A stretch of DNA of 39,102 nucleotides. It comes from Lachnospiraceae bacterium (GTDB taxonomy: Bacteria > Bacillota > Clostridia > Lachnospirales > Lachnospiraceae). The DNA lies in the NCBI GenBank assembly GCA_024698885.1, contig JAILQQ010000029.1, positions 1-39,102 of the forward strand. The letters are read 5' to 3'. A program made the translations under genes and the position numbers. Position 1 is the stretch's first letter; each line of letters begins with the position of its first letter. The notes beneath the pieces were generated by a model. The model was not told the DNA's origin and made no database searches. It saw only the letters and a program-made list of their open reading frames with translations. This document shows positions 1 to 27,219 of this stretch, in pieces.

Positions 1-424
1 GGCATGACTGGGAAAAACGATCGCGCTGCTAAGGAAATGATTCGGTCAGCATGCTGACTGAACCGGCATGAACTGAAGTTCCTGCCTAAGCACACAATTT
101 GCTGCGCAAAATGGTGCGGCAGTGAGGCAAGTCCGGGCTTCACAGGGCAGGATGCCGGATAACGTCCGGTGGAGGCGACTCCAAGGCCAGTGCAACAGAA
201 AGTATACCGCTCAGCAATGAGTAAGGGTGAAATGGCAGTGTAAGAGACTACCGGCCGGCTGGTAACAGCAGGCGCAATGTAAACCCCATCCGAAGCAAGA
301 TCAAATTGAGAGCCATATGGCGGCCCGTCATGCTCTCTGGTAGATCGCTAAAGCTGGCTGGCAACAGTTCAGCGAAGACAGATGATCGTTCTCGACAGAA
401 CCCGGCTTATTGAACAGTCATGTT
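1..424 (+). ncRNA. rnpB: RNase P RNA, bacterial class A, with enlarged P3
   Basis: Catalytic RNA of ribonuclease P, which removes 5' leaders from pre-tRNAs. Visible universal elements are GAGGCAAGTCCGGGCT (125-140), the CACAGGGCAG and AACGTCCGGTGG stretch, CAGTGCAACAGAAAGTA, GTAAGGGTGAAATGG, GGTAACAGCAGGC, GTAAACCCCATCCGAAGCAAG and the 3' CGACAGAACCCGGCTTAT. P1 closes by pairing 2-10 with 415-423, and P2 pairs AACGATC (15-21) with GATCGTT near 383-389, so the RNA appears complete; its true 5' end may lie a base or two outside the window. P3 begins with CGCTGC (24-29) pairing GCAGTG (119-124), but the 89 nt between them is far longer than a usual P3 tip and is a repeat element (separate entry). 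The promoter is outside the window. Confidence 0.96.
33..116 (+). repeat. Three-hairpin repeat copy inside the rnpB P3 arm
   Basis: This 84-nt stretch has three consecutive imperfect hairpins: 39-64 (arms GATTCGGTCAGC and GCTGACTGAACC), 65-86 (GGCATGAAC with GTTCCTGCC) and about 90-117. It aligns almost end to end with 461-544, downstream of the gene, with about 85% identity by eye and differences mainly in loops and as G-U or single mismatches in stems. It sits exactly where the distal P3 helix of RNase P RNA would be, so it is best read as an inserted, slightly decayed copy tolerated as a P3 extension. Confidence 0.85.
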
Positions 425-444
425 ATGTAAACCAAATTAGACAT

Positions 445-556
445 ATCGGCGCAGGAAAGAGGAAATGATTCGGTCAGCGTGCTGACCGAATCGGCATGAA
501 CAGGTTCATGCCTAAGCGCACGATTTGCAAGCAAATCGGCGCAGGAAAGAGGAAAT
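445..556 (+). repeat. Three-hairpin repeat between rnpB and proA, with direct repeats
   Basis: Better preserved copy of the element found in rnpB P3. Three hairpins follow one another: a perfect 12-bp stem at 468-493 (GATTCGGTCAGC with GCTGACCGAATC), a 9-bp stem at 493-512 (GGCATGAAC with GTTCATGCC), and a stem at 517-542 built on CGATTTGC and GCAAATCG. A 22-bp sequence ending GGAAAGAGGAAAT occurs at 445-466 and again, identically, at 535-556, giving a 90-bp period across the element. No open reading frame is involved. The second direct repeat ends just before the proA ribosome binding site, so the element forms the proA leader or the rnpB trailer. Confidence 0.85.
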
Positions 557-572
557 CAAGGGAGAATCATTG

Positions 573-1832
573 ATGGCAGATCTGAATGAAATGGGAAGGA
601 AGGCGAAGGAAGCCTCCGCTTTGCTTTCGCTTTACACGACAGAAGAGAAGAACAGAGGTCTTGAGACGGCGGCCCGCGTGCTGCTTGAAAAAGAGGCCGC
701 GATCCTGGCGGCAAACAGCCTTGATGTGGAGCAGGCGGAGAAAAACGGCGTTTCTCCTGCCATGATCGACCGCCTGCGCCTTAACCACGACAGGATCGCT
801 GCCATGGCGGAGGGGCTTACCCAGATCGTAGCCCTTGCGGATCCCATCGGAGAGGTGCTTGAGAGCTTTTCCCGCCCGAACGGTCTGCAGATCAAAAAAG
901 TCAGGGTTCCCCTCGGCGTGATCGGGATCATCTATGAATCCCGCCCGAACGTAACGGCAGACGCCTTCGGACTCTGCTTTAAGAGTGGCAATGCCGTGAT
1001 CCTGCGGGGCGGAAGCGATGCGCTTTGTTCCAATCAGGCGATCGTCGCTGCTCTCCGGGAAGCGCTGTCTGAGGCAGGACTCTGTCCGGATGCGCTGCAG
1101 CTCATGGAGGATACCTCGCGGGAAGCCGCGGCAGCTTTGATGCGTTTAAACCGGTATGTTGACGTGCTGATCCCCCGGGGCGGGGCCGGCCTGATCCGCA
1201 CCTGTCTGGAAACGACTACTGTACCCTGCATCGAAACAGGGACCGGAAACTGTCATATATATGTGGATGAATCGGCGGATCTGTCCATGGCCGTGGAGAT
1301 CATTGACAATGCCAAGACCCAGAGAATGGGCGTATGCAACGCCTGCGAATCCCTCTTGGTGCATGAGGCGGCGGCGAAAAAAGCGATCCCGCTCATTTAT
1401 GAGAGACTGACCGGTAAGCATGTGGAGATCCGGGCCGGTGAAAGGGTCTTTTCCATCTGCGGCGGCGATTGTCCCGATCTGAAGGCGGCAGTCGAGGAGG
1501 ATTTCGCGACGGAATTTCTCGGCCCCGTGATCTCGCTGCAGATCGTTTCGGATATAGACGAAGCGATCGCGCATATCAACCGCTATTCCACCCACCATTC
1601 CGACGCGATCATTACGGAAAACGCGGAAAACGCGGAAAAATTCTTAAACGGCGTGGATGCGGCCGCTGTATACGTCAACGCCTCCACCCGCTTTACCGAC
1701 GGCTTTGAATTCGGCTTTGGCGCGGAGATCGGTATCAGCACCCAGAAGCTTCATGCCAGGGGGCCCATGGGCTTAAAGGAATTAACAAGCTATAAATACC
1801 AGGTCAGGGGAAACGGTCAGATCAGGGGCTGA
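573..1832 (+). CDS. proA: Gamma-glutamyl phosphate reductase (glutamate-5-semialdehyde dehydrogenase)
   Basis: Second step of proline synthesis: NADPH-dependent reduction of gamma-glutamyl phosphate to glutamate 5-semialdehyde in the cytosol. The 419-residue product matches the usual 410-420 length. It shows the ProA signatures [19 protein letters not shown], the cofactor-loop region [31 protein letters not shown] and the active-site cysteine segment [13 protein letters not shown], ending [22 protein letters not shown] 573 is chosen because AAGGGAG lies 8-9 nt upstream and the protein then starts at the usual place; an in-frame start at 525 would lie inside the repeat element. proB is not adjacent, which is unusual because proBA are commonly paired. 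The 3' end overlaps the convergent kinase gene by 16 bp. Confidence 0.96.
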
Positions 1833-10147: not shown

Positions 10148-10198
10148 CGTATTTTCCTCCTGTGTTATGATACCTTGCGGTTCCGCGCTAGCGGCCGC

Positions 10199-10246
10199 GT
10201 GGAATTTTCCTGAAAATTCCACATGAGAGAATCGCCTTGCGATTCT
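10199..10246. repeat. Two perfect hairpins between pyrB and pyrI
   Basis: A 10-bp stem GTGGAATTTT with AAAATTCCAC (10199-10222, 4-nt loop) is followed by an 8-bp stem AGAATCGC with GCGATTCT (10228-10246, 3-nt loop). Neither has a U-tract in the pyrBI direction. The chained-hairpin style resembles the element at 445-556. Confidence 0.75.
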
Positions 10247-10272
10247 TCCTTGAACCTGTATAGCATGATGGC

Positions 10273-27004: not shown

Positions 27005-27051
27005 CAGAAAAGGAACGAAGGCCGTAGCGATGCGGTTTTCGTTCTTTTCTG
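27005..27051 (+). terminator. Hairpin after the unknown gene
   Basis: Stem of about 14 bp with one bulge, CAGAAAAGGAACGAA with TTCGTTCTTTTCTG, 8 nt after the stop. The descending arm is T-rich (TTCTTTTCTGTTT), giving a plausible terminator. Confidence 0.7.
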
Positions 27052-27059
27052 TTTGCGCG

Positions 27060-27120
27060 CCGGAAAAGGCAATTATAGTGAACGACAAAAAAGAGTTGTC
27101 GTTCACTATAATGCCTCCGG
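27060..27120. repeat. Long perfect hairpin, 60 bp
   Basis: Arms ATTATAGTGAACGACAA and TTGTCGTTCACTATAAT pair perfectly and extend outward through AGGC/GCCT and CCGG with a single bulge, around a short loop. No T tract follows. It is the first of three stacked structures ahead of the CPBP gene. Confidence 0.85.
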
Positions 27121-27125
27121 CGGAT

Positions 27126-27177
27126 GCGCACGATTTTTGCAGGGAAATATGCCGCTTAAGCGGCCAAAAATCGGCGC
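27126..27177. repeat. Nested hairpin related to the rnpB-proA element
   Basis: Outer stem GCGCACGATTTTTG (27126-27139) with CAAAAATCGGCGC (27165-27177) encloses the perfect palindrome GCCGCTTAAGCGGC (27151-27164). The outer arm ends GCGCACGATTT and AAATCGGCGCAG also bound the third hairpin of the 445-556 element, showing shared ancestry of this module. Confidence 0.75.
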
Positions 27178-27219
27178 AGCAAACGCCAAAGTAAAATGAA
27201 CTTTGCCGTTTGCTATAAT
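27178..27219 (+). repeat. Repeat hairpin with adjoining TATAAT
   Basis: AGCAAACGCCAAAGT (27178-27192) pairs with ACTTTGCCGTTTGCT (27200-27214), the same motif as 12569-12602. Its last base begins a perfect TATAAT (27214-27219) that may be the -10 of the CPBP gene, although no -35 is visible at the proper distance. Confidence 0.7.

Follow-up and report, generated by a model that had tools for sequence, protein, structure and literature searches.

Probable insertion of a three-hairpin interspersed repeat into the P3 arm of RNase P RNA in a Lachnospiraceae bacterium

The rnpB gene at the start of the window, i.e., of the entire 39,102-nt stretch of Lachnospiraceae DNA that was analyzed, carries in its P3 arm a full copy of a dispersed unit of about 80-90 nt that consists of three hairpins. 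The explanation that we favor, and regard as probable as a whole, is that this unit represents a lineage-specific, non-coding interspersed family that was amplified in a small clade of one genus, and that the P3 extension is a copy of it which would have moved into rnpB and been tolerated there. This would be a clear case of an essential ribozyme absorbing a spreading element as a multi-branched domain, and relatives differ in this respect, with a short P3 in the genome G007, a possible H3-like hairpin in G001, and the full copy in the window's own assembly (G000).

The P3 arm of rnpB and the start of the window

The gene matches the class A RNase P RNA model RF00010 with 260.5 bits (gathering threshold 100) over model positions 1-367 of 367, and in this alignment P3 comprises 87 nt in the window versus 10 in the model. 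A sequence-only reading had proposed that a hairpin repeat within P3 corresponds to an intergenic element nearby, and this is borne out: positions 33-117 repeat 461-542 with three hairpins in the same order, and direct repeats run collinearly at 32-73/460-501 (93%) and 78-102/504-528 (88%). R1, a covariance model built from 36 copies with the rnpB copy excluded, still detects the P3 copy (31-121) with 72.5 bits (E 6.9e-14) when the whole window is searched with filters off. The RNase P model and fold, suggested in the same reading for placing the insert, locate its three hairpins (predicted fold) within a retained P3 base helix that closes around them (Table 1).

A second contig, C83, ends in the same rnpB and overlaps the window over 205 bases (window 1-205 and L134:2819-3023) with 9 substitutions. 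It carries the P3 insert at the same place, and the flanks of C83 and of the window lie on opposite sides. In the C83 copy H2 and H3 are fully paired, the single A-C mismatch of H1 is present in C83 and window alike, and the predicted folding energy of the P3 copy is -49.9 kcal/mol in C83 versus -41.6 kcal/mol in the window. The earlier statement that the rnpB copy pairs less well thus stands for the window copy but not for H2 and H3 of C83, and the idea that the rnpB copy has drifted finds no clear support, since the C83 version pairs better. Because the core motif directly 3' of P3 reads GAGGCAAG in the window and GAGGAAAG in C83 and the relatives compared, the first bases of the window may be a strain variant or hold contig-end errors, and part of the apparent drift of the window copy may be due to either.

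The assembly, a bin whose contamination amounts to 4.78%, contains a second, unlike class A rnpB on contig C128 (C128:9944-10300; L031, L133). Near its end, C83 holds a phosphoribulokinase/uridine kinase family gene (assigned by a Pfam match of the G001 protein) that is 89% identical to its G001 counterpart. Two true rnpB genes in one organism were considered and rejected, as the corresponding kinase-family gene of C128 is only 64% identical to that of G001. C128 also deviates in its tetranucleotide correlation (r 0.787 versus 0.897-0.941 for six other stretches), gives no R1 match better than E 0.67, and forms a long outgroup branch in the kinase-family tree. Its rnpB most likely comes from a contaminant.

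Between the kinase-family gene and rnpB, C83 shows by eye a very long hairpin (L134:2650-2780). An H1 fragment on the same contig (L134 2792-2818; 16.8 bits, E 0.00041 in 424 bases) abuts GGCATGA, the first 7 nt of the P1 5' strand, and this junction resembles the H1-H2 junction of the element. With the element remnant ATCGGCGCAG just after rnpB, this leads us to suggest, purely as a suggestion, that P1 might perhaps be partly element-derived too. Elsewhere in the window, an inverted repeat whose arms measure about 25 nt is visible by eye at 27045-27180, beside the possible H3-only remnant, and another hairpin-rich stretch at 10166-10254 gives a weak R1 match (20.7 bits) and is probably unrelated.

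Table 1. Positions of rnpB, element copies and adjoining features in the window.
Feature	Position	Strand	Basis or remark
P1 5' strand, GGCATGACTG	1..10	+	pairs with 415-424
rnpB, class A RNase P RNA gene	3..426	+	RF00010; contig begins here
P3 base helix, 5' strand	24..30	+	pairs with 118-124, encloses element; fold and RF00010 alignment
Full element copy in P3	33..117	+	R1 match, fold, second contig C83
Layout of P3 copy: GGAAAT, then H1, H2, TAA, H3	H1 39-64, H2 65-86, TAA 87-89, H3 90-117	+	
P3 base helix, 3' strand	118..124	+	fold and RF00010 alignment
Core motif directly 3' of P3	124..131	+	GAGGCAAG in window, GAGGAAAG in C83
ATCGGCGCAG, left from the H3 3' arm of a truncated element	445..454	+	repeat match; just after rnpB, beside intergenic copy
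Full element copy in the rnpB-proA intergenic space	459..546	+	R1 111.7 bits
ORF which we take to be proA	573..1832	+	ATG at 573 within ORF 525-1832; Pfam Aldedh 2.6e-23; downstream of intergenic copy
Possible H3-only remnant, longer loop	27126..27179	+	R1 15.1 bits, E 0.085, weak

Structure, placement and spread of the element family

The unit consists, in order, of GGAAAT, H1, H2, TAA, H3 with a bulged A, and AG. In G000 all 150 scored candidates match; as these were 150 of 3894 candidates, the number is a lower bound, and it may include contaminant contigs. Covariation was studied in 115 aligned copies (93 from G000, 13 from G001, 8 from G007, and 1 from RUI134), the alignment being fitted to the model and thus favoring its structure, containing both rnpB copies, and having one place entered via two overlapping loci; 98.4% of its cells are paired, and double-sided changes occur in 25 of 31 pairs. 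None of 500 shuffles reached the observed covariation, and slid structures drop to 21-41% paired. One copy searched against Rfam (window 430-570) gave no match at E up to 1. The terminal inverted repeats of a MITE were not seen by eye, the consensus starting with GGAAATGAT and ending with GGCGCAG, and exact matches in viral contigs amount to 0. The tmRNA of G000, with 349 nt over the whole model, has a length that does not suggest any insert.

The genomic context was analyzed in 728,157 bases of stretches that were picked for holding copies and contain 98 of them, two in rnpB, after removal of one reverse-strand echo. Counting one per tandem array leaves 90 places, for which neighbors are mechanical ORFs rather than curated genes. 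Copies between codirectional genes are in sense orientation at 42 places and antisense at 5, whereas 19 places are flanked by divergent genes and 11 by convergent ones, and 13 are without a neighbor on one side. Among the divergent and convergent places, the orientation follows GC skew in 26 of 29 cases (one of the 30 was dropped for weak skew), and where codirectional genes oppose the skew, copies follow the genes (3/3). Since skew partly reflects gene strand, replication and transcription are not separated by these counts. For 72 of 107 copies, an ORF of 60 amino acids or more has its start codon no further than 60 nt from the 3' end of the copy, versus 26 of 103 on the control side; with copies that have element sequence within the adjoining 60 nt left out, the figures are 64/80 and 10/50, and the spacing is 7-16 nt in 44 of these 64 versus 2 of the 10 controls. 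On the 5' side, 44/103 copies are preceded by a sense gene whose stop codon is no more than about 60 nt away (control 17/107). Among the 82 copies not trailed by another copy, a ribosome-binding-like motif starts at most 16 nt after H3 in 34, compared with 5 for the 40 nt upstream. A structured repeat family for which one copy searched has no Rfam match thus stands just ahead of ribosome-binding sites and start codons, a placement that makes insertion bias versus regulatory function directly testable.

Within the genus, R1 matches were found in 3 of 37 genomes, i.e., G000 (119/119 scored), G001 (65), and G007 (8), so that copy number differs widely among the three carriers. The wider model R2, with 150 candidates scored per genome, yields 76 matches in G001 and 8 in G007, and none in the sister genomes G017, G018, and G019 at the same depth. 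In a draw of 299 genomes from the family G000 is the sole match (0/298 others), although weak relatives may escape this draw because its filters were stricter and few candidates were scored per genome. A pattern scan of named genomes, from which near relatives are possibly absent, returned one contig, from the Lachnospiraceae MAG RUI134. As a carrier RUI134 was rejected, since it has one copy at a contig end, with a cut-off second copy next to it, and an rnpB of normal length; the copy is therefore probably on a stray contig. The tree of the kinase-family gene beside rnpB unites the three carriers as a clade (support 100/97), within which G000 weakly joins G007 (94/68). Besides the window, proA follows rnpB in 2 of the 32 loci examined, namely in G001 and G007, at least 4 of the 32 stopping in rnpB and therefore being unable to reveal proA.

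Origin of the P3 extension

RF00010 matches were obtained in 33 of the 37 genomes of the genus, and 30 other rnpB loci were read, from 29 genus genomes and contig C128, no locus being readable in 7 of the other 36 genomes of the genus. A comparison of P3 among relatives, as the sequence-only reading had advised, finds the region up to GAGGAAAG to be shorter in all 30: measured from 30 nt before the RF00010 match, it spans 41-94 nt, versus 123 nt in the window without the 30-nt lead. G007 has an ordinary short P3 although the element is present in its genome. Among the 30 loci, to 9 of which R1 was applied with filters off, only the P3 of G001 resembles part of the element, its hairpin sharing 25 of 30 positions with an element H3 and scoring 21.6 bits with R1 (E 0.0029). 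This likeness was reached by 0 of 1000 random hairpins in a control with the six best copies only and by 0 of 500 free random hairpins against all 102 distinct H3 sequences, but by 41 of 500 against the same 102 once the random hairpins were constrained to the GCGC base and AG tail, so that it depends mainly on this frame. It is plausible, though not proven, that the P3 of G001 is hairpin 3 alone and of partial element origin. As G000 groups with G007, whose P3 is short, the full copy in G000 and the hairpin in G001 would imply two gains, or one gain and a loss. No exact empty rnpB site was found, because P3 loops differ between species.

In the sister species G018 (L045), P3 is lengthened, by eye, through a different hairpin, so that P3 may gain sequence often here. 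Further rnpB extensions, presumably of P16/P17 and P18, are seen in G001 (L056:1501-1951) and G007 (L055), one region being common to both and an additional one near the 3' end occurring in G001. In several genus genomes (G027, G021, and G025; L059, L060, and L061) contigs stop inside rnpB.

Under the insertion account the element would spread without a gene of its own and land, or survive, chiefly codirectionally with transcription and immediately upstream of a ribosome-binding site, one landing having hit the P3 loop of rnpB. There it would be tolerated since closure of the P3 base helix is retained and the hairpins fold independently, forming a multi-branched P3, and most likely the insert does little in RNase P itself and is nearly neutral. 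The direction from element to rnpB is suggested by the short P3 of G007 and of the other loci read. With regard to movement, solitary copies show no excess of target duplications of at least 4 nt (1/42 versus 0.58 expected), whereas 3-nt duplications number 6 versus 2.72 expected, a value reached in 2 of 300 re-pairings. Over all copies, abutting repeats number 20 versus 8.5, an excess that is gone in solitary copies at 4 nt or more.

That an ordinary P3 arm was instead copied to intergenic space, or that the whole family was born from the P3 of rnpB, might be considered because the nearest intergenic copy is only about 430 nt away. This is exceedingly improbable in view of the matches at 150 or more places in the assembly, i.e., the other genomic copies by which the sequence-only reading had expected a dispersed element to differ from a local duplication, and of the element in G007 next to a short P3; P3 regions are shorter in the other loci read as well, and among the aligned copies the P3 copy of C83 scores best against L005 on another contig (C13), not against the neighboring copy. 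Copy number and shorter P3 elsewhere therefore favor insertion of a dispersed element. A misjoining of repeat reads to a contig end inside rnpB could be argued from the start of the window at rnpB, its 9 differences to C83 in 205 bases, and its altered core motif, yet it is highly unlikely since the second contig bears the same, better-paired insert in the same position, the two contigs having their flanks on different sides of rnpB, and since P3 closes around the insert. Short, mostly extragenic palindromes in more than 100 copies, partly in tandem, might also point to a REP/REPIN-like element moved by a RAYT transposase. REP sequences carry a GT(A/G)G head at the foot of the palindrome (PMC2817692); of 112 copies here, 3 have GTGG and 0 have GTAG at the 5' foot. 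Y1_Tnp (PF01797), the enzyme family searched, gives no match in G000, G001, or G007, bins that are 85-98% complete, versus 18 of 37 genomes overall, and the tandem pairs seen are direct, whereas REP clusters often alternate (PMC2817692). An origin of this kind is thus very unlikely.

Less readily set aside, though still rather doubtful, is a functional mRNA-leader module under selection, acting in processing, stability, or translation control and perhaps binding a shared protein, that was recruited in rnpB. The strong covariation, the sense orientation, the sharp spacing to start codons, and the full pairing of H2 and H3 in the rnpB of C83 would all agree with it. However, covariation is possible in DNA hairpins as well, an orientation along GC skew at divergent and convergent places is obtainable by insertion bias and, as skew partly mirrors gene strand, indecisive, 11 of the 90 places are between convergent genes, and copy number varies widely among the three carriers. 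A further reading, which we consider improbable, is that the element is aimed just 5' of Shine-Dalgarno-like GAGGA motifs and struck rnpB since GAGGAAAG after P3 mimics one. The P3 copy ends 6-7 nt ahead of GAGGAAAG, with the same spacing in G001, and this distance from H3 resembles that from H3 to the ribosome-binding-like motif in mRNA copies, which fits such aiming, although an element entering the P3 loop for whatever reason would stop about there too. If it were true, the same RNA module would be present in at least 100 mRNA leaders and in RNase P RNA, there at P3 in G000, perhaps as H3 alone in G001 and perhaps in P1, and one RNA-binding or processing factor could serve both.

Relation to known repeat families

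The family that we propose to have inserted into rnpB resembles REP/BIME sequences with their RAYTs in being extragenic palindromes with more than 100 copies, and differs from them by the missing GTAG head, the lack of a Y1 transposase match in the carriers, three different hairpins per unit, the sense bias, and the adjoining start codons (PMC2817692). Searches of open-licence papers did not turn up a complete multi-hairpin unit in P3, this family, or its placement ahead of ribosome-binding sites. A repeat within rnpB is not without precedent: judging by its title, a 1997 work by Vioque reportedly concerns STRR sequences within the rnpB of heterocyst-forming cyanobacteria. Both cases have a repeat family inside an RNase P RNA gene; STRRs, by the title, are short tandem repeats, whereas the present case involves a different bacterial group and a single, complete three-hairpin unit of some 85 nt that shows covariation. 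Rickettsia palindromic elements are repeats found inserted in both coding and RNA genes, and from that description they share with the present element the location inside an RNA gene. The BOX elements of pneumococcus, modular intergenic elements of several stems, are by their description similar to it in this modular, several-stem, intergenic organization.
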